Assembly (NCBI RefSeq): GCF_015142735.1
Contig: NZ_JACSPN010000009.1
Coordinates: 77,160 to 120,573, forward strand
Direction of reading: 5' to 3'
Source: Oerskovia douganii
GTDB lineage: Bacteria > Actinomycetota > Actinomycetes > Actinomycetales > Cellulomonadaceae
DNA length: 43,414 nt
Below are positions 24,118-33,820 of this stretch, piece after piece (within the stretch, counting starts at the first letter, position 1; every line of letters starts with the position of its first letter). The notes under the pieces were generated by a model that was not told the DNA's origin, did no database searches, and saw only the letters and a list, made by a program, of their open reading frames with translations. A program made the position numbers and the translations under genes.

Positions 24118-27100
24118 TCAGTCGCTCGTCGGCTCGGCCTTCTCCGCTGCGGCCTTCCGGGCGGCAGCCTTCCTGGGGGCCGCAGCCTTGGGGGCGGCCG
24201 ACGCCTTGACGGTCGTCGAGGACTCGTTCGCCGCGGCCGTCGTGGACGACTTGCGTGCGGCCGTCTTCCGAGGCGTCTTCGCGGCCGAGGCCTTGCCCGC
24301 CGTGGCGGACGAGGACTTCTTGGGCAGGGGCGCCACCGGGATCGGGTCCCCCGTGAGGACCTCCGCGAGGAACCGACCGGTGTGGCTCGCCGGGACCGCC
24401 GCGACCTGCTCCGGCGTTCCCTCCGCGATGACCCGACCTCCCCCGGAACCGCCCTCGGGGCCCATGTCGATGACCCAGTCCGCGTTCTTGATGACGTCGA
24501 GGTTGTGCTCGATCACGAGGACCGTGTTGCCCTTGTCGACGAGCGACTGGAGGACCGCGAGCAGCTTGCGGATGTCTTCGAAGTGCAGGCCCGTCGTGGG
24601 CTCGTCCAGGACGTAGATCGTCCGGCCCGTCGACCGCTTCTGCAGCTCGCTCGCGAGCTTGACGCGCTGGGCCTCACCACCCGAGAGGGTGGGCGCCGGC
24701 TGACCGAGGCGCACGTAGCCGAGGCCGACCTCCGAGAGCGTCTTGAGGTGCCGCGAGATCGTGGGGACCGCCGCGAAGAACTCCGAGGCCTCCTCGATGG
24801 GCATGTCGAGCACGTCCGCCACGGTCTTGCCCTTGAAGTGCACCTCGAGCGTCTCGCGGTTGTAGCGCGCGCCGTGGCAGACCTCGCAGGGGACGTAGAC
24901 GTCCGGCAGGAAGTTCATCTCGATCTTGATGGTCCCGTCGCCCGAGCACGCCTCGCAGCGCCCGCCCTTGACGTTGAACGAGAAGCGCCCAGGCGTGTAG
25001 CCACGGACCTTGGCCTCGCTCGTCTCGGCGAAGAGCTTGCGGACGTGGTCCCAGACCCCCGTGTAGGTCGCGGGGTTCGACCGCGGGGTGCGCCCGATGG
25101 GCCCCTGGTCCACGTGCACGACCTTGTCGAGGTTCTCGAGCCCCGTGATGCGACGGTGACGGCCCGCGACCTGCCGCGCCCCGTTGAGCTCGTTGGCGAG
25201 CACGGTGTAGAGGATCGAGTTGACCAGCGTGGACTTCCCCGAGCCCGAGACCCCGGTGACGGCGGTCAGGGTGCCGAGCGGGAAGCTCACGTCGATGCCC
25301 TCGAGGTTGTGCTCTCGCGCACCGATGACCGTGACCTGACGGTCCTTGTCCACGGGTCGGCGCGACGCGGGCAGCGGGATGCTGCGGCGTCCTGCGAGAT
25401 AGGCGCCCGTGACGGACTCGGGGGCCTCGAGGAGCCCCGCGTAGTCGCCCGAGTGGATCACGCGACCGCCGTGCTCGCCGGCCCCCGGCCCGATGTCCAC
25501 GATCCAGTCGGCGGCACGGATGGTGTCCTCGTCGTGCTCGACGACGATGAGGGTGTTGCCCAGGTCCCGCAGACGGGTCAGCGTGTCGATGAGGCGACGG
25601 TTGTCGCGCTGGTGCAGCCCGATGCTCGGCTCGTCCAGGACGTACAGCACACCCACGAGCCCCGAGCCGATCTGCGTCGCGAGGCGGATGCGCTGCGCCT
25701 CGCCGCCCGAGAGGGTCCCTGCGGGACGCTCGAGCGAGAGGTAGTCCAGGCCGACGTCGAGGAGGAAGCCCAGCCGGGCGTCGATCTCCTTGAGGACCTC
25801 GGTCGCGATGGCCTTCTGGCGGGTGCCCAGCTCGAGCGAGCCGAGGAACGCGGCGGCCTCGCGCAGCGGCAGACGGCAGACCTCCGCGATCGACTTGTCG
25901 CCGACCTTGACCGCGAGGACCTCGGGCTTGAGGCGAGTGCCCTCGCACACCGGGCACGGCGTCTCGCGCATGTACGCCTCGTACTTCTCCTTGGACCACT
26001 CCGACTCGGTCTCGCCGTGCCGGCGTTCCAGGAACGTCACGACCCCCTCGAAGCCGGTCGAGTACTGGCGCTCGCGCCCCCAGCGGTTCTTGTACCGGAC
26101 GTGGACCTCGTGGTTCTGGCCGTAGAGCACGGCCTGCTGGGCGCGCTGGGGCAGCGCGCGCCACGGCACGTCCATGGAGAAGCCGAGGTCCGAGGCCAGG
26201 GCCGTCAGGACGCGGTTGAAGTACTCCGAGGAGATCTGCGCCCAGGGGGCCACCGCGCCCTCGGCCAGCGACTTCTCGTCGTCGGGGATCACGAGGTCCG
26301 GGTCCACCTCGAGGCGGAAGCCGATGCCCGTGCACTCGGGGCACGCCCCGTAGGGAGCGTTGAAGGAGAAGGTGCGCGGCTCGATCTCGTCGAGCGTGAG
26401 CTCGTGGTCGTTGGGGCACGCGCGCTTCTCGGAGAAGCGTCGCTCACGCTGCGGGTCGTCCGCGTCGGCGTCCACGAGCTCGACGACGACGAGCCCGCCC
26501 GCGAGCCCCAGCGCCGTCTCCACGGAGTCCGTGAGCCTGCGCTGGACGCCCTCGCGCGAGACGAGACGGTCGATCACGACCTCGATGTCGTGCTTGAGCT
26601 TCTTCTCGAGCGTGGGAGGGTCCGTCAGCTGGACGACCTCTCCGTCGACCCGTGCGCGCGCGAACCCCTTGGACTGCAGCTCCTTGAAGAGCTCGCTGTA
26701 CTCGCCCTTGCGTCCGCGGACCACGGGCGCCAGGACCTGGTAGCGCGTGCCCTCCGGCAGCTCGAGGAGGCGGTCGACGATCTGCTGCGGCGTCTGGGCC
26801 TGGACCTTCTCGCCGCAGACCGGGCAGTGCTGCGTGCCGGCGCGCGCGAACAGCAGGCGGAGGTAGTCGTAGACCTCGGTGATGGTGCCCACGGTCGAGC
26901 GCGGGTTGCGGTTGGTCGACTTCTGGTCGATCGAGACCGCGGGCGAGAGCCCTTCGATGAAGTCGACGTCCGGCTTGTCCATCTGCCCGAGGAACTGGCG
27001 GGCGTACGCGGACAACGACTCGACGTAGCGGCGCTGCCCCTCGGCGAAGATGGTGTCGAACGCGAGGGAGGACTTGCCGGACCCCGACAGGCCCGTGAAG

Positions 27101-27186
27101 ACGATGAGCTGGTCCCTCGGCAGGTCGAGGTCGACGTTGCGGAGGTTGTGCTCGCGGGCACCAGCGATGACAAGGCGATTGCTCAC
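24118..27186 (-). CDS. uvrA: Excinuclease ABC subunit A
   Basis: The damage-sensing ATPase of nucleotide excision repair; 1022 residues from GTG 27184-27186. Two ABC-type ATPase modules are visible: Walker [11 protein letters not shown] near 32-41 and [10 protein letters not shown] in the second half, each with a later LSGGEAQR signature. Zinc-binding CPVCGE and [17 protein letters not shown] modules are present. GTG was chosen because [17 protein letters not shown] is the family N-terminus. The last 70 or so residues are a Lys/Ala/Thr-rich tail ([25 protein letters not shown]) beyond the usual UvrA end. Confidence 0.97.
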
Positions 27187-27192
27187 CGAAGC

Positions 27193-27231
27193 ATCGTATG
27201 CCTCGACCCTGACATTCGCACACCTGTTCGA
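27193..27231 (-). promoter_or_regulatory. uvrA leaderless promoter with SOS (LexA) box
   Basis: TACGAT (27193-27198) ends 6 bases before the uvrA GTG. At 27216-27231 the minus strand reads TCGAAC-AGGT-GTGCGA, one base off the actinobacterial LexA consensus TCGAAC-N4-GTTCGA, and it covers the -35 position. LexA binding there would block the promoter, so uvrA should be DNA-damage inducible. Confidence 0.65.
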
Positions 27232-27364
27232 CCCCTCGGTTCCACCGCCGACCGTCGGGAGCGACGTCCCCGACGGCCCGGATCCGCCGGCGGGCCCCGT
27301 GACCAGCGCGCCGACCGGCGTCCCGACCCGTGCGCACGGCACCGCAGGTGCGGACGAGACACGC

Positions 27365-27393
27365 GTCACACGGTCCGCCTCGCGTGCCATACT
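27365..27393 (+). promoter_or_regulatory. Promoter of the metallo-beta-lactamase-fold gene
   Basis: GTCACA (27365-27370), a 17-base spacer and CATACT (27388-27393): four of six matches to each sigma-70 consensus hexamer. Transcription would start near 27400, exactly where the 24-base dyad begins. Confidence 0.55.
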
Positions 27394-27399
27394 CGGCCG

Positions 27400-27423
27400 C
27401 GAGCAGCCCGGCCGGGCTGCTCG
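27400..27423. repeat. 24-bp perfect dyad ahead of the MBL-fold gene
   Basis: A loop-free perfect inverted repeat (half site GAGCAGCCCGG, axis between 27411 and 27412). It lies over the predicted transcription start and 23 bases before the ATG. It could be an operator at +1 or a leader hairpin. Confidence 0.6.
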
Positions 27424-27445
27424 AGCGACGGGACGGGGAGCGCAC

Positions 27446-28153
27446 ATGGGCTACGGCGGCGACGTGGTGGTCGGAGGACCGAGCGACCTGCGCGTCCTCG
27501 ACGAGCTCGAGGTCCGCAAGGCGGCCGTCGGCCCCTCCGCGAACAACACCTACCTCCTGACCTGCCGGGCCGGCGGAGCCCAGCTCCTCGTCGACGCCGC
27601 CGCCGACGCCGACCGGCTCGTCGCCCTCGTGCGCGAGGGGTCGCCCGACGCTCGCCTCGACCTGATCGTCACGACGCACCGCCACCTCGACCACGTGGGA
27701 GCGCTCGAGTCGCTCGTCGCCGTCACCGGGGCCCCGGTCGCCGCAGGCGCCCCGGACGCGGAGGCCGTCAGCGAGGCGACCGGGGTCGCGATCACGCGCC
27801 CGCTGCACGACGGCGACACGATCGTCCTCGGCCACGTCACCCTCGAGGTGATCGGCCTGCGGGGCCACACCCCGGGGTCCGTCGCGCTCGCCTACCGCGA
27901 ACCCGAGCACGCGAGCGGCCCCGGCTCGCTGCCCGGGCGCGTGCACCTGTTCACGGGGGACACCCTGTTCCCGGGCGGGGTCGGCAGCACGTCGAACGAC
28001 CCCGCGCGCTTCGCCCAGCTCTACGCCGACGTCACCACGAAGCTCTTCGACCGGTACGACGACGCCACCTGGGTGTACCCCGGCCACGGCCTCGACACGA
28101 CCCTCGGGGCCGAGCGCCCGCACCTCGACGAGTGGCGCGAGCGCGGGTGGTAG
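27446..28153 (+). CDS. Metallo-beta-lactamase-fold hydrolase
   Basis: A 235-residue zinc hydrolase of the MBL superfamily, glyoxalase-II-like in architecture. The metal ligands are all present: H78, H80, D82 and H83 ([10 protein letters not shown]), H141 (RGHTPGS), D172 ([10 protein letters not shown]) and H214 (YPGHG). Substrate cannot be told from sequence; hydroxyacylglutathione/mycothiol-type thioesters are possible because such actinobacterial proteins often act on thiol esters (inference). ATG at 27446 has GGGGAG 6-7 bases upstream; an open frame extends further upstream but through uvrA. Divergent from uvrA. Confidence 0.9.
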
Positions 28154-28223
28154 CCCCCTCCGGTCCGGCGGGCCGCCCCGAGGCCCGGGACCAGGGGCCG
28201 GCCTCGGTCCGGAGAGTGCTTGA

Positions 28224-28532
28224 ATGAGCGCCATGCCGATCTTCGCCGTGACCTACACGTACGCCGACCGCCCCACCGTCCTGGACGAGCACCGCCCTGA
28301 GCACCGCGCCTTCCTGCGCGGGCTGCTCGACGACGGCACGCTGCTCGCGTCCGGCCCGCTCGCCCAGGACGCCGCCAACCCCGCCGGCGCCCTCCTGCTG
28401 GTCGACGCGCCGGACGAGGGGGCGGTCGCGACGGCGCTCGACGCCGACCCGTTCGCGCGCGAGCACGTCATCACCCGCCGGACCGTCCGCCCCTGGTCCC
28501 CCGTCATCGGCCCCTGGGCCGACCGCGCCTGA
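28224..28532 (+). CDS. YciI-like protein
   Basis: A 102-residue ferredoxin-like-fold protein of the YciI family. It begins IFAVTYTYADRP and has the conserved His/Arg segment LDEHRPEHRAFLRGL, the DGTLLASGPL turn, GALLLVDAPD and a C-terminal region ending WSPVIGPW. Function is poorly defined in the family. ATG at 28224 was preferred over 28233 because GGAG lies 9 bases upstream. It follows the MBL-fold gene by 70 bases and could be in its operon. Confidence 0.85.
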   Translation: MSAMPIFAVTYTYADRPTVLDEHRPEHRAFLRGLLDDGTLLASGPLAQDAANPAGALLLVDAPDEGAVATALDADPFAREHVITRRTVRPWSPVIGPWADRA

Positions 28533-28574
28533 CCGCACCGGCACCCTCGACGGGCGACGCGCCCCCGGACGCGC

Positions 28575-28608
28575 GACGGCCCGCCTCCCCGAGGGGAGGC
28601 GGGCCGTC
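28575..28608. terminator. Bidirectional terminator between YciI-like gene and terC operon
   Basis: A 15-bp perfect stem closed by a CGAG tetraloop (28575-28608), between the convergent YciI-like gene and the terC pair. Confidence 0.75.
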
Positions 28609-28644
28609 CGCGTACCAGGCGAGCAGGCGCCCGACGCGAGCGCG

Positions 28645-29658
28645 CTACGAGGGCGCGTCGACGTCGTCGGGCACCGGCTCGAGCCTGCTCGACGCACGCG
28701 TGCGCAGCAGGCTCGCCACGGTCGTGACCCCGAGCGCGCCCACGATGACCACGAGCGAGAGCCAGATCGGGACCGTCGGGACGGCCTCGACGTGCTGCCC
28801 GCCGTTGATGAACGGCAACGTGTTCTCGTGCAGCGCCTCGAGGATGAGCTTGATCCCGATGAAGCCCAGGATGACCGCCAGCCCGATCGGCAGGTAGACC
28901 AGGCGCTCGAGCAGCCCACCCAGCAGGAAGTAGAGCTGACGGAGCCCCATGAGGGCGAAGACGTTCGTCGTGAACACGATGAACGGGTCCTGCGTCAGGC
29001 CGAAGATCGCCGGGATCGAGTCGAACGCGAACAGCAGGTCCGTGCTGCCGATCGCGAGGAACACGACGAGCATGGGCGTGAAGAGCTTCTTGCCGTCGAC
29101 CACGGTCCGCAGCCTGCCGCCGTCGTACGTCTGCGACAGGGGAAGCACCCGGCGCAGCGACCGGATCAGCCGGTTCTCCTGGTACTCCTCCGGCTCGTCC
29201 CCGCCCGCGACCAGCTTGACCGCGGTGTAGATCAGGAACGCCCCGAAGAGGTAGAAGACCCACACGAACTGGGCGATGATCGCGGCGCCCGCGAGGATGA
29301 ACGCACCTCGCAGCACGAGCGCCACGATGATCCCCACCATGAGCACCTTCTGCTGGTGCTCCCGCGGCACGGCGAACCTCGTCATGATGATGACGAACAC
29401 GAAGAGGTTGTCCACGGACAGGCTGTACTCGGTGAGCCAGCCCGCGTAGAACTCGACCGCGGGAGCACTGCCGCCCACGAGGGCGACGAGGCCGCCGAAG
29501 ACCAGTGCCAGGGCGACGTAGAACGCCACCCACAGGCCGCTCTCCTTCATCGACGGCACGTGCGGCCGACGGCCCACGACCACCAGGTCGACGAGCAGGA
29601 GGACGACGAGGGCCGTCAGGGACGCCGCCTCGAACCAGAACGGCAGCTCGTGCTGCAT
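28645..29658 (-). CDS. TerC-family membrane protein (second of tandem pair)
   Basis: A 337-residue polytopic membrane protein of the TerC/Alx family; several members export Mn2+ or supply it to secreted enzymes. About eight to nine hydrophobic helices. The paired acidic metal motifs are D83-N84 (LSVDNLFVF) and D207/D213 (STDLLFAFDSIPAIFGLTQ). It lacks the TerD-like parts of true tellurite operons. The start overlaps the stop of the upstream terC gene (TGATG), so both are made from one mRNA under the predicted riboswitch. Confidence 0.92.
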   Translation of the reverse strand: MQHELPFWFEAASLTALVVLLLVDLVVVGRRPHVPSMKESGLWVAFYVALALVFGGLVALVGGSAPAVEFYAGWLTEYSLSVDNLFVFVIIMTRFAVPREHQQKVLMVGIIVALVLRGAFILAGAAIIAQFVWVFYLFGAFLIYTAVKLVAGGDEPEEYQENRLIRSLRRVLPLSQTYDGGRLRTVVDGKKLFTPMLVVFLAIGSTDLLFAFDSIPAIFGLTQDPFIVFTTNVFALMGLRQLYFLLGGLLERLVYLPIGLAVILGFIGIKLILEALHENTLPFINGGQHVEAVPTVPIWLSLVVIVGALGVTTVASLLRTRASSRLEPVPDDVDAPS

Positions 29659-30656
29659 CAGTAGGTCTCCTTCTCCAGCTGTCGGCGGTCGCTACGGTCC
29701 TTCGCGAGGCTCGCGATCGTGGTGATCGCCAGCGTGACCACGATGAAGCCGAGCGAGACGGCCGTGGAGATCTCCGGGATGGCCGTGATGTGCTCACCAC
29801 CGTTGATGAACGGGATCTCGTTCTTGTGCAGCGCGTGGATGAGCAGCTTGATCCCGATGAAGCCGAGGATCGCGGCCAGCCCCCAGGCCAGGTACACGAG
29901 GCGGTCCAGCAGACCGTCGATCAGGAAGTAGAGCTGACGCAGACCGAGCAGCGAGAACGCGTTGGCCGCGAAGACGAGGAACGTCTCCTGCGTGAGACCG
30001 AAGATCGCGGGGATCGAGTCCACCGCGAAGAGCAGGTCGGCGCTGCCGATCGCGATCATCACGATGAGCATGGGCGTGATGTAGCGCTTGCCGTCGATCT
30101 TGGTGAACATGCGGTCCTCGACGTACGCGTCCGTCGTCGGGAACAGGCGGCGCGTGAGGCGCAGGACGCCGTTCTCCTTGTACTCCTCGTCGTCGTGCGA
30201 CCGCGCACTCTTGATCTGCGCGTACGCCGTGTAGATCAGGAAGGCGCCGAAGATGTAGAAGACCCAGCTGAAGTTCTCGATCAGCGCGGCGCCCAGGAAG
30301 ATGAAGATCGTGCGCAGGACCAGCGCGATCGTGATCCCGATCAGCAGCACCTTCTGCTGGTACAGCCTGGGCACGCGGAAGCTCGTCATGATGAGGACGA
30401 ACACGAAGAGGTTGTCGACCGACAGGCTCTTCTCCGTGATGTACCCGGCGAAGTACTCACCGCCGTAGACCGAGCCGAAGTAGGCCCAGATCCCGACCCC
30501 GAAGAGCACCGCGATCCCGACGTAGCCGGCGGACCACCACGAGGCTTCCTTGAGGGTGGGAGCGTGCGGGGTGCGGACGTGGCCCACGAAGTCGAAGGCC
30601 AGCATCGCGACGATCACCCCGATCGTCGCGACCCACATCCAGACAGGAACATCCAT
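29658..30656 (-). CDS. TerC-family membrane protein (first of tandem pair)
   Basis: A 332-residue TerC/Alx-type transporter. Matching acidic motifs are D81-N82 (LSVDNLFVF) and D207/D213 (SADLLFAVDSIPAIFGLTQ). The cytoplasmic loop near 150-190 is charged (ARSHDDEEYKENG) and differs from the partner protein, so the two may not be fully redundant. ATG 30654-30656 was chosen over the adjacent GTG because GGAGG lies 8 bases before it. The Mn2+ role is inferred from the family and the upstream riboswitch. Confidence 0.93.
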   Translation of the reverse strand: MDVPVWMWVATIGVIVAMLAFDFVGHVRTPHAPTLKEASWWSAGYVGIAVLFGVGIWAYFGSVYGGEYFAGYITEKSLSVDNLFVFVLIMTSFRVPRLYQQKVLLIGITIALVLRTIFIFLGAALIENFSWVFYIFGAFLIYTAYAQIKSARSHDDEEYKENGVLRLTRRLFPTTDAYVEDRMFTKIDGKRYITPMLIVMIAIGSADLLFAVDSIPAIFGLTQETFLVFAANAFSLLGLRQLYFLIDGLLDRLVYLAWGLAAILGFIGIKLLIHALHKNEIPFINGGEHITAIPEISTAVSLGFIVVTLAITTIASLAKDRSDRRQLEKETY

Positions 30657-30687
30657 CACACATACCTCCGGTACGTAGCGTCGAGTA

Positions 30688-30830
30688 CCGAAGGTCTCTT
30701 CCGCCCTCGGATCACCGAACCGCCCGGAGGCGGCCGCGAGAGGTGACCGTGCAGGACCGGTGACACCGGGCCGACGACTGCGCCGACCGTGATGACGACA
30801 TCACCGTGTTCAGGAATACTCCCCTTCAAC
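30688..30830 (-). ncRNA. Predicted yybP-ykoY (Mn2+) riboswitch ahead of terC pair
   Basis: Read on the minus strand, the leader starts with GAAGGGGAGUA (GGGGAGUA at 30817-30824). It continues with a hairpin containing GAUGUCGUCAUCACGG (about 30787-30803) and ends in GAAGAGACCUUCGG (about 30687-30700). The 5' GAAGG pairs with the 3' CCUUC to close helix P1. GGGGAGUA and the GUCAUCACGG-type loop are the hallmark of the yybP-ykoY manganese-sensing class, which by established knowledge often controls terC/alx and mntP genes. Between P1 and the terC ribosome site lie about 30 bases, suited to translational control. Confidence 0.8.
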
Positions 30831-30836
30831 CGAGCA

Positions 30837-30842
30837 AGCATA
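30837..30842 (-). promoter_or_regulatory. -10 box of the riboswitch-terC transcript
   Basis: TATGCT on the minus strand ends 7 bases before the expected first base of the riboswitch (about 30830). The -35 region is GC-rich and unclear. Confidence 0.5.
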
Positions 30843-30936
30843 GGGCATCGTGCGATGCCGGCCCCCTCGCCTCCCACAACGCGTCGAGCCGTGCGGTTCT
30901 TCCGGCACGCCTCCCGCCGCGGCGCCCGTCAGGTGC

Positions 30937-31359
30937 TCACTGCACGCAGAACTCGTTGCCCTCGGGGTCCTGCAGGACGATCCAGAACTCACCGTCCTCG
31001 TCCATCTCCTGGAGCACGGTCGCCCCGAGCGAGACGAGGTGCTGCGTGTGCGAGCGGACGTTGCGCACCCTCTCGTCGCCCTGTCCGTCGACCCCCACGT
31101 CGATGTGCATGCGGTTCTTGGCCGTCTTGCCCTCGGGGACCTGCTGGACGAAGATCCGTGGCCCCACGCCGTCCGGGTCCACGATCGCGGCGAACGCGTT
31201 GAACCGGTCCGGGCTCATGCCCCAGGACGCCATCGCGGCCTCCCAGTCGTCGAACCCGTCGGGCGGTGGCTGCGCGACGTAGCCGAGCGCCTCGCACCAG
31301 AAGGCCGCGAGCGCCCGGGGGTCCGCTGCGTCGAACGTGATCTGGACCGTGCGTGCCAT
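30937..31359 (-). CDS. VOC-fold (glyoxalase-like) protein
   Basis: A 140-residue vicinal-oxygen-chelate protein of the glyoxalase-like/PhnB-type group common in actinobacteria. Family features: VQITFDAADPRALAAFWCEALGY at the N-terminus, RIFVQQVPEGKTAKNRMHIDV in the middle and VLQDPEGNEFCV at the end. The substrate is unknown; members act in antibiotic resistance, aromatic metabolism or detoxification. ATG 31357-31359 has GAGGG 6-7 bases upstream. It lies 107 bases after uvrB on the same strand. Confidence 0.85.
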   Translation of the reverse strand: MARTVQITFDAADPRALAAFWCEALGYVAQPPPDGFDDWEAAMASWGMSPDRFNAFAAIVDPDGVGPRIFVQQVPEGKTAKNRMHIDVGVDGQGDERVRNVRSHTQHLVSLGATVLQEMDEDGEFWIVLQDPEGNEFCVQ

Positions 31360-31466
31360 GTGATCCCTCGTCCTCTCCCGAGCGCCGGGCCGACGGCGTC
31401 GGTCGGGCGGTGCCCTGGCGTCCGGCGGCGCCCCGTGCAGGCGGTCGCCGTCGTCAGGGCGTGTCG

Positions 31467-33563
31467 TCAGGCGGTGGCCGACTGCATCTGCCGCAGCTCC
31501 TTCTTGAGCCCGGAGATCTCGTCGCGCAGGCGCGCGGCGAGCTCGAACTGCAGCTCGGCCGCTGCGGCGTGCATCTGGTCGCTCAGCTCCTGGATGAGGT
31601 CGGCGAGCTCGCCCGCCGCGACCCCCGCCAGCCGGTTCGACGTCGCCCCCTCCTTGGGGCCGCCGGGGACCGGGGCGCGACCCTTGCCGGGCTGCCGGTA
31701 GCCGCCCGCGAGGAGCTCCTGCGTGTCGATGTCCTCCCGGGCGAGCATGTCCGTGACGTCGGCGATCTTCTTGCGCAGCGGCATGGGGTCCACACCGTGC
31801 TCGAGGTTGTACGCGACCTGCTTCTCGCGGCGCCGCGTGGTCTCCTCGATCGCCTGGGCCATGGCGGGGGTGATCTTGTCGGCGTACATGTGGACCTGGC
31901 CGGACACGTTGCGCGCCGCACGACCGATCGTCTGGATGAGGGACGTGCCCGATCGCAGGAAGCCCTCCTTGTCCGCGTCGAGGATCGCGACGAGCGAGAC
32001 CTCGGGCAGGTCGAGCCCCTCGCGGAGCAGGTTGATGCCGACCAGGACGTCGTACTCCCCCATCCGCAGCTCGCGCAGGAGCTCGACGCGGCGCAGCGTG
32101 TCGACCTCGGAGTGCAGGTACCGGACCCGGACGTCGCGCTCCAGGAAGTAGTCCGTGAGGTCCTCGGACATCTTCTTGGTCAGGGTCGTGACCAGGACGC
32201 GCTCGTTGCGCTCGACCCGCTCACGGATCTCGTGGAGCAGGTCGTCGATCTGCCCCGTGGTCGGCTTGACCACGATCTCCGGGTCGACCAGACCGGTGGG
32301 GCGGATGATCTGCTCGACCACGCCGTCCGACATCGAGAGCTCGTACTTGCCCGGCGTCGCCGAGAGGTACACCGTCTGCCCGATCCGCTCGACGAACTCC
32401 TCCCAGCGCAGCGGCCGGTTGTCCATGGCGCTCGGCAGGCGGAAGCCGTGGTCGACGAGGTTGCGCTTGCGCGACATGTCACCCTCGAACATCGCCCCGA
32501 TCTGGGGCACGGTCACGTGGGACTCGTCGATCACGAGGAGGAAGTCCTCGGGGAAGTAGTCCAGCAGCGTGTGCGGCGCGGTGCCGGGCTCTCGCCCGTC
32601 GATGTGCCGCGAGTAGTTCTCGATCCCCGAGCACGACCCGATCTGGCGCATCATCTCGATGTCGTAGGTGGTGCGCATGCGCAGACGCTGCGCCTCGAGG
32701 AGCTTGTTCTGCCGCTCCAGCTCCGCGAGCCGCTGCTCGAGCTCGGTCTCGATCGACGTGATCGCGCGCTCCATGCGCTCCGGGCCGGCGACGTAGTGCG
32801 TCGCGGGGAACAGGTTGACGCTCGTCTCCGACCGCACGACCTCTCCCGTGAGCGGGTGGAGCAGGTGGATCGCCTCGATCTCGTCGCCGAAGAACTCGAT
32901 GCGGATCGCGAGCTCCTCGTAGACCGGGATGATCTCGACCGTGTCGCCGCGCACCCGGAACGTGCCGCGCGTGAACGCCATGTCGTTGCGCGTGTACTGC
33001 ATGGTGACGAACTGGCGCAGCATCGCGTCCCGCTCGACCTGGTCCCCGACGTCGAGCCGGACCATGCGGTCGACGTACTCCTGCGGCGTGCCCAGGCCGT
33101 AGATGCACGACACCGAGGCCACCACGACGACGTCACGGCGCGTCAGCAGCGACGACGTCGCGGAGTGACGCAGGCGCTCGACCTCGTCGTTGATCGAGGA
33201 GTCCTTCTCGATGTAGGTGTCCGTCTGCGCGATGTAGGCCTCGGGCTGGTAGTAGTCGTAGTACGACACGAAGTACTCGACCGCGTTGTTGGGGAGCAGC
33301 TCCCGGAACTCGGTCGCCAGCTGCGCCGCCAGGGTCTTGTTGGGCGCCATGACCAGGGTGGGCCGTTGCAGCTCCTCGATGAGCCACGCCGTCGTCGCCG
33401 ACTTCCCGGTACCCGTGGCCCCGAGGAGCACCACGTCCTTCTCGCCCGCGCGCAGGCGCTCGGAGAGCTCGGCGATGGCCGTGGGCTGGTCTCCGGACGG
33501 GGTGTAGTCGGAGATGACCTCGAACGGGGCGACGGTGCGCTGGAGATCGGTGACAGGTCGCAT
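31467..33563 (-). CDS. uvrB: Excinuclease ABC subunit B
   Basis: The helicase-fold damage-verification subunit; 698 residues from ATG 33561-33563. Order: Walker [12 protein letters not shown] near 42-52, the DNA-strand-separating beta-hairpin [11 protein letters not shown] near 100-110, DESH box (VIDESHV) near 345, helicase motif [13 protein letters not shown] near 545, and the C-terminal UVR domain ([20 protein letters not shown]) that contacts UvrC. A longer open frame upstream was rejected because the family N-terminus is [16 protein letters not shown]. Confidence 0.97.
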
Positions 33564-33569
33564 GGTTCC

Positions 33570-33575
33570 ACGGTA
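33570..33575 (-). promoter_or_regulatory. -10 box giving leaderless uvrB mRNA
   Basis: TACCGT ends 6 bases before the uvrB ATG, matching the arrangement at uvrA and uvrC. No LexA-like box was found nearby. Confidence 0.5.
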
Positions 33576-33673
33576 CGGCGAGCCACCGACAACCGGCCGC
33601 TCGGCCCGTCGGCCCCATCGGCCGCCGAGGCGCCGTCGTGAGGATCGGCGCCGGTTTTCACCCGGTTGAAGAT

Positions 33674-33703
33674 TTGGCGTGTCGCGAAGGCCGCCCCTAA
33701 TGT
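33674..33703 (+). promoter_or_regulatory. Promoter of the choice-of-anchor-A gene
   Basis: TTGGCG (33674-33679), 18-base spacer, TAATGT (33698-33703). Transcription would begin near 33710, giving a leader of about 110 bases that is less GC-rich than the rest of the window (33760-33800) and has no clear fold. Confidence 0.5.
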
Positions 33704-33820
33704 CGCGGTGATCCCACGCTTCTCGTGACATCCCTCACCAAACCCGACAGCGGGCCACGACGTGCCGTTGATTAGTACGCAAACCTTACTTTCAGCCTCG
33801 ACCCTCTCCCGGAGACGACG

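Follow-up and report, generated by a model that had tools for sequence, protein, structure and literature searches.

A stretch of 43,414 nucleotides (nt) from Oerskovia douganii (contig NZ_JACSPN010000009.1, positions 77,160 to 120,573; the window, meaning the whole of this stretch) carries on its minus strand two adjoining genes of the TerC family, named here terC1 and terC2, behind a conserved leader. With a probability of about 0.88, and on the basis of sequence comparison, this leader is read as a yybP-ykoY-class riboswitch that senses Mn2+, with an alx-like three-way junction devoid of helix P2, which would exert translational ON control over terC1 and the coupled terC2. The features at the locus, in window coordinates, are as follows.

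28645-29658, minus strand: terC2, the second TerC-family protein (Pfam PF03741, 169.4 bits)
29658-30659, minus strand: terC1, a TerC-family membrane protein (Pfam PF03741, 176 bits)
30665-30669, minus strand: Shine-Dalgarno sequence GGAGG, 8 nt before the ATG at 30656 and 5 nt before the GTG at 30659
30690-30827, minus strand: predicted Mn2+ riboswitch aptamer of the alx type with a three-way junction, running from P1.1 to P1.1' and matched by the covariance model R1 described below
30837-30842, minus strand: -10-like promoter element TATGCT, by sequence, with the TANNNT spacing kept in 37 of 54 aligned leaders

Both terC products pass the Pfam gathering score for PF03741 (27.8 bits). The two genes overlap by one base, and terC1 probably starts at the ATG at 30656. 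In alignments the terC1 product shares 54% identity with that of terC2 and 40% with Alx of Escherichia coli, the acidic residues D23, E76, D82, E158, D208 and D214 (terC1 numbering) being common to all three; its nearest named relatives are those of Oerskovia rustica, turbata, merdavium and enterophila, at 95% identity each. An initial annotation of this DNA had placed a manganese riboswitch and a tandem terC operon at 29658-30842, an interval that spans the leader and terC1 but leaves terC2 (28645-29658) outside. The leader motifs that it named were all located on the minus strand: GGGGAGTA at 30824-30817, GTCATCACGG at 30796-30787 and GAGACCTTC at 30698-30690.

Upstream of the leader, a glyoxalase-like gene and uvrB were recognized by their Pfam domains. 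The minus-strand order across 24118-33731 is uvrB, the glyoxalase-like gene, the predicted riboswitch, terC1 and terC2, with a uvrA-like frame farther on (24118-27447, a long minus-strand frame that resembles uvrA). In several relatives, sequence like the end of uvrB was noticed by eye immediately before the aptamer as well.

Fold and predicted metal site of the aptamer

With terC1 as the query, 66 related loci were fetched, 64 of them with upstream DNA (all except L060 and L064). GGGAGTA was found within 330 nt in 60 of these 64 terC leaders and is absent from L059, L062, L066 and L067. As six of the 60 were identical to another, 54 distinct leaders were aligned. The fold was drawn from the window sequence and then counted on this alignment, which was made from sequence only. 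Its parts are listed here.

30823-30827, minus strand: 5' strand of P1.1, GAAGG (99.3% of P1.1 cells paired)
30690-30694, minus strand: 3' strand of P1.1, CCUUC, which is also the anti-Shine-Dalgarno strand and can pair with 30823-30827 or with 30665-30669
30817-30822, minus strand: 5' strand of L1, GGAGUA (3' strand GAGA, 30695-30698)
30813-30816, minus strand: 5' strand of P1.2, UUCC (3' strand GGAA, 30699-30702)
30796-30805, minus strand: 5' strand of P3.1 (3' strand 30759-30768)
30789-30795, minus strand: L3 bulge UCAUCAC, of conserved residues, with the predicted Mn2+-discriminating adenosine at 30793
30769-30788, minus strand: P3.2 hairpin closing the L3 leg (7 pairs, 6 of them doubly changed, 83.5% of cells paired)
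30703-30758, minus strand: P4 hairpin, of variable length among leaders, with a foot recovered by RNAalifold

Across the 54 leaders, 91.4% of the 1356 cells are paired in the drawn fold, a level reached in none of 500 shuffles; slid controls reach 53.3% at most. Changes on both sides were seen in 19 of the 26 helix pairs, and the covariation score was 0.397 against 0.190 in shuffles, with the caveat that kindred sequences may beat shuffles without structure. All four pairs of P1.2 are doubly changed (94.0% of cells paired), as are seven of the ten pairs of P3.1 (91.5%) and two of the five pairs of P1.1, whose second pair is G-C in 29 leaders, A-U in 23 and G-U in two. From the same alignment RNAalifold recovered P1.1, P1.2, most of P3 and the foot of P4, the three base pairs of which are each doubly changed in some leaders; P3.2 was not recovered.

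The invariant columns of the alignment read CG.CA..ACG, C.G and AGAC.U. Because the leaders were selected by GGGAGUA, the conservation of that motif is not independent evidence. Several invariant core columns lie outside it, and AGAC, on the 3' side of L1, is invariant in all 54 and was not used in the selection. P1.1 flanks an L1 loop made of GGGGAGUA and GAGAC, as in the class. The TATGCT box also lies where the initial annotation expected the RNA to start; a TANNNT ending 4-16 nt before P1.1 occurs in 37 of the 54 leaders, compared with 2 of 1080 control windows farther upstream. A promoter search gave no sigma-70-like match with a -35 element at the leader.

The L3 bulge follows the pattern U-C-A-N-N-A-C, in which the C, both adenosines and the final C are present in 54/54 leaders, and L022 and L026 carry another base in place of the U. 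The class is recognized by an L3 bulge with an invariant discriminator adenosine, and here the CA is invariant throughout. The Mn site of the Lactococcus lactis riboswitch is described as G9, U39, C40, A41, U44 and C45 (PMC9190785), and the Xanthomonas oryzae counterpart of A41 as the invariable A48 (PMC6754395). If the seven bases of the bulge are read as L. lactis 39-45, a register suggested by the pairing, then U39, C40, A41 and C45 would be kept in the window, and L3 appears to retain the majority of the residues published for the Mn site, with C40, A41 and C45 in 54/54.

The distance from GGGAGUA to CG[U/A]CANNACG is 16-19 nt in 54/54 leaders and is filled by P1.2, a short linker and P3, which leaves no room for P2. 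The aptamer thus lacks P2 and its junction is three-way, and the picture given by the initial annotation has to be corrected on this point. P2 is not universal in the class, since alx is without it and the mgtA aptamer has been called three-way. In two loci found by RF00080, the Rfam model of the class (L073 and L075, near 1501-1620), inspection by eye showed a P2 hairpin together with an L3 of UCAGUAC as in the P2-less group, an intermediate form that is followed by a TerC gene. In two others (L100:1501 and L104:1501) L1 reads GGGGCAGUA, with one base inserted into GGGGAGUA; TerC still lies downstream.

Homology to alx and the reach of RF00080

The covariance model R1 was built from the 54 actinobacterial aptamers only, its E-values being rough, and was applied to the window, to two loci of the same genome at chance level and to ten outside loci. 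It matches the window aptamer, a sequence among the 54, over model positions 1-107 at 90.7 bits (E 5.4e-22). The E. coli alx leader is matched over the full length, 1-107, at 61.5 bits (E 3.5e-14), with one base inserted before P3, which supplies homology to a reported Mn-responsive member of the class. Mn activates a reporter carrying the alx 5' untranslated region, and the same paper places alx in the yybP-ykoY family (PMC9603457); the alx product is annotated in the record as a TerC-family Mn exporter. Together with the covarying fold and the L3 residues, the match to alx bears out the assignment to the yybP-ykoY class made initially. No further convincing aptamer was found by R1 in the O. 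douganii genome, the second-best score being 21.5 bits (E 0.085) against 90.7 bits at the leader. Six of the eight loci found by RF00080 in the phylum (L069-L076) were matched by R1 at 16.6-38.6 bits, mostly with inserts at the P2 site.

The test originally proposed, a scan with RF00080, gave no match to the leader. At the gathering cut-off the model is silent across the whole window and in 16 related loci (0 matches), up to E<=10 it finds nothing at the leader, and the leader stays below the 45 bits set by release 15. Taken alone, this silence would refute the Mn riboswitch reading. However, RF00080 also leaves the E. coli alx leader unmatched up to E<=10 in a scan of 251 bases (L077:850-1100), and it scores the E. 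coli mntP leader at 41.6 bits, under the 45-bit cut-off. Because it misses alx, a reported Mn-responsive member, the test is undecisive and was dropped as uninformative, and the failure points to a shortcoming of the model, not to the edge of the riboswitch class. RF00080 matches elsewhere in the O. douganii genome (L001 and L002, 12.1 and 8.5 bits) were rejected as chance level, as were weak snoRNA matches on the opposite strand (14.6 and 13.2 bits, with cut-offs of 50 and 40).

Over 198 Actinomycetota genomes, searched with stricter filters so that only part of each genome's candidates was scored, R1 matched 47 at E<=0.01, and RF00080 matched 14 at E<=0.1 with one above its cut-off; this gain is partly expected, since the sample holds the genome of the window and relatives of the training set. 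The genes next to 30 of the 59 R1 matches comprise 20 TerC (window included) and six P-type cation ATPases (L084, L085, L090, L092, L099 and L103), together with one GDT1 (L105), one Na/Ca exchanger (L097) and one SAICAR synthetase; one is cut by a contig end. Judged by gene family, the TerC, P-type ATPase, GDT1 and Na/Ca exchanger genes are the Mn2+ transport genes expected under the class, and the downstream genes would fit a Mn regulon. The ATPase loci suggest pumps for Mn2+ (or Ca2+). In L107 the aptamer (1501-1592) is followed by a U-rich terminator-like hairpin, noticed by eye, and then by the SAICAR synthetase gene (1719-2603), which would be an odd target for a Mn2+ switch.

As 6 of the 30 loci precede P-type ATPases, the ligand could include another ion. 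The alternative is a variant of the same RNA class tuned to a different divalent ion (Ca2+, Fe2+, Co2+ or a mixture) that the TerC pair handles. One review considers it likely that certain common yybP variants have altered their specificity (PMC7266159), and in another the Streptococcus pneumoniae mgtA aptamer is said to bind Ca2+ more tightly than Mn2+ (PMC9495176). Nevertheless, the discriminator A and the C next to it belong to the Mn site reported for L. lactis, a Mn response is reported for alx, the closest relative that has been tested, and TerC is the commonest controlled gene (20 of the 30 loci), so that such a variant is unlikely. Slightly less likely still is a sensor of alkaline pH for which Mn2+ would be secondary. 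The Oerskovia leader is alx-like by R1, and the alx reporter was reported to respond 3.5-fold to pH 8.5 alone and most strongly to pH 8.5 with Mn (PMC9603457); but in the same source Mn activates both the alx and mntP reporters, and nothing in the Oerskovia sequence itself speaks for pH.

Predicted control of the terC pair

The region between the aptamer and terC1 offers a second pairing for the 3' strand of P1.1.

30665-30694, minus strand: ribosome-binding-site hairpin CCUUCGGUAC/GUACCGGAGG, 10 base pairs (bp), the predicted OFF state

The strand CCUUC together with the following GGUAC can form ten base pairs with GUACCGGAGG, which holds GGAGG. Starting from the 3' strand of P1.1, 50 of the 54 leaders can form a helix of 7 bp or more, as against 6.6% of shuffled tails, and the other strand of this helix holds a Shine-Dalgarno-like motif in 46 of the 54. 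In the alignment 87.0% of the OFF-hairpin cells are paired, compared with 49.0% at most in slid versions. The same five bases are claimed by P1.1 and by the ribosome-binding-site hairpin, two pairings that are mutually exclusive. The best RNAfold structure contains the OFF hairpin (-76.5 kcal/mol) and the structure with P1.1 forced reaches -75.6 kcal/mol, a gap of 0.9, where this one leader gave -76.2 or -76.5 kcal/mol depending on whether it was typed with T or with U; neither structure contains P3 as drawn. No terminator-like match was found in the leader, and a transcription terminator there was rejected on that ground.

Because the anti-Shine-Dalgarno strand is the 3' strand of P1.1, control is predicted at translation. 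Mn2+ is reported to stabilise P1.1 (PMC6754395, PMC11087558), and since P1.1' can pair the ribosome-binding site, a translational ON switch is the simplest mechanism predicted. At low Mn2+, CCUUC and GGUAC would pair with GUACCGGAGG and hide the ribosome-binding site of terC1. At high Mn2+, the ion would be held between L1 and the L3 bulge UCAUCAC, docking the two legs; the docked aptamer would stabilise P1.1 and free the ribosome-binding site, terC1 would be translated, and the one-base overlap would carry translation on into terC2. Two diverged TerC-family proteins would result, exporting Mn2+ and/or loading secreted enzymes with Mn2+. TerC proteins have been linked to Mn transport and to the metalation of secreted enzymes (PMC10550928, PMC12096827), and in Vibrio parahaemolyticus one TerC gene and one GDT1/TMEM165-type gene under yybP-ykoY leaders are reported as Mn-induced, with no drop in RNA sequencing (RNA-seq) coverage at the leader (PMC13274385).

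Several observations weigh against the Mn2+ riboswitch reading as a whole or in part. Folding of the single sequence favours a local hairpin (GUGAUG/CAUCAC) over P3; it was therefore rejected as evidence for P3, the case for which is comparative. L3 has an A where L. lactis has U44, and the four-way junction with P2 is not seen in the leader. R1 does not match L072 or L076, nor the E. coli mntP leader at E<=10. The doubly changed pairs of the OFF hairpin are no better than in shuffles (235 of 500 as high), and four of the 54 leaders have no 7-bp hairpin of this kind. One terminator-like match was found at the start of terC2 (29656-29643), with 0.9 expected by chance. Finally, R1 found no second aptamer before the spaced terC2 genes of six loci of Geodermatophilaceae type (L045, L046, L048, L050, L051 and L063).

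A conserved leader that does not sense metal, whether a protein-binding site, an attenuator or a transcription terminator, would agree with the silence of RF00080 and with the strong hairpin directly before terC1, yet the homology to alx, the metal-transporter families downstream, the leader without a terminator-like match and the conserved Mn-site residues make it very improbable. A chance match in GC-rich DNA, for which the shortness of the motifs and the same silence might be invoked, can practically be dismissed in view of GGGAGTA in 60 of 64 related leaders, the covariation, the match of alx by R1 and a runner-up score in the same genome of 21.5 as compared with 90.7 bits.

Two TerC genes lie within the fetched DNA in 44 of the 66 loci, some species being counted twice. 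In a 111-row terC tree, rooted at its midpoint and with some long branches, a 100/96 branch sets apart the 44 second copies with two single-copy genes, and a 97/89 branch the 44 first copies with 15 single-copy genes. As the copies form separate lineages, the terC1/terC2 duplication probably predates the split of the bacterial families concerned, and most single terC genes probably reflect loss of the second copy. The tandem terC pair of the initial annotation is thus confirmed as two diverged genes of separate old lineages with a one-base overlap; the export of Mn2+ by both, which it also claimed, may be expected from their relatives. The record of L046 is labelled Bacillus sp. AZ43 (unverified), and both of its TerC proteins group with Blastococcus in the tree; it is probably a mislabelled actinobacterium.

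R1 was searched for second aptamers in 35 of the 66 loci, and six Geodermatophilaceae loci carry one between the terC genes (71.9-83.3 bits), differing in sequence from the first aptamer of the locus.

L052, 4259-4358: second aptamer by R1
L053, 4271-4370: second aptamer by R1
L054, 4155-4255: second aptamer by R1
L055, 4114-4227: second aptamer by R1
L056, 4271-4371: second aptamer by R1
L057, 4155-4255: second aptamer by R1

In L052, L053, L054, L056 and L057 the terC genes are 316-434 nt apart, and the aptamer and a CCUCCGG/CCGGAGG-type hairpin stand directly before terC2. In L055 the second aptamer and the terC2 GTG are separated by a short frame together with a -10-like element, TAGAGT. 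In the six spaced loci without a second aptamer, the terC2 GTG start is close behind a -10-like TANNNT. Since the spaced loci differ in this way, terC2 is often, not always, under aptamer control.

Known systems and wider meaning

The closest known system is E. coli alx, which shares GGGGAGUA and GAGACCUU around L1, P1.2, the absence of P2, the P4 hairpin and a TerC gene downstream, and has the same type of L3 (UCAUUAC, compared with UCAUCAC in Oerskovia). The Oerskovia element differs in its expression platform, the P1.1'/ribosome-binding-site hairpin, and in being followed by two terC genes. The crystallised riboswitches of L. lactis yoaB and X. oryzae, as described, share the P1.1 switch helix, L1, P1.2 and an L3 with the invariant discriminator A, but have four helices or a four-way junction and terminator control, whereas the Oerskovia leader has a three-way junction and predicted translational control. 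E. coli mntP shares the L1 core and a reported Mn-controlled translation (PMC9603457), but has P2 and another L3 (GUCAACAUACU).

A review likewise describes the Mn-sensing S. pneumoniae mgtA riboswitch as a three-way-junction aptamer of the yybP-ykoY class (PMC9495176), although it controls a Mn/Ca ATPase; the three-way junction is thus not new in kind. Among actinobacteria, terC of Corynebacterium glutamicum (cg2157) has a yybP-ykoY leader that was predicted through Rfam, at 49.13 bits with an older RF00080 model, and observed by RNA-seq (PMC3890552), its likeness being again by description. C. glutamicum is not among the genomes matching RF00080 at E<=0.1 in the 198-genome run with its stricter filters. 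Other actinobacterial yybP-ykoY leaders likewise come from predictions by earlier Rfam models and have in part been observed by RNA-seq (PMC3890552, PMC4046766, PMC3917459; survey PMC3766115). Among literature titles and abstract openings, a scope that leaves most subscription papers outside and is no proof of absence, none names the Oerskovia element or P2-less actinobacterial aptamers.

The Oerskovia element therefore appears to belong to a known riboswitch class, and what this study adds concerns the blind spot in RF00080 and how far the alx-type form extends. It is tempting, if doubtful, to go further and suppose that the P2-less alx-type aptamers are a separate Mn2+ riboswitch branch, predominant in Actinomycetota and mostly missed by the current Rfam model, and that they might read Mn2+ and alkaline pH jointly as alx does, the missing P2 marking a pH-coupled subclass. 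On the present reading, the standard annotation model RF00080 (Rfam 15) overlooks a Mn2+ riboswitch form that includes E. coli alx, and actinobacterial TerC, P-type ATPase and GDT1 genes would be tied to manganese through their R1 matches. With two diverged TerC proteins under a single predicted switch, the locus may also offer a natural case for asking why cells keep two.

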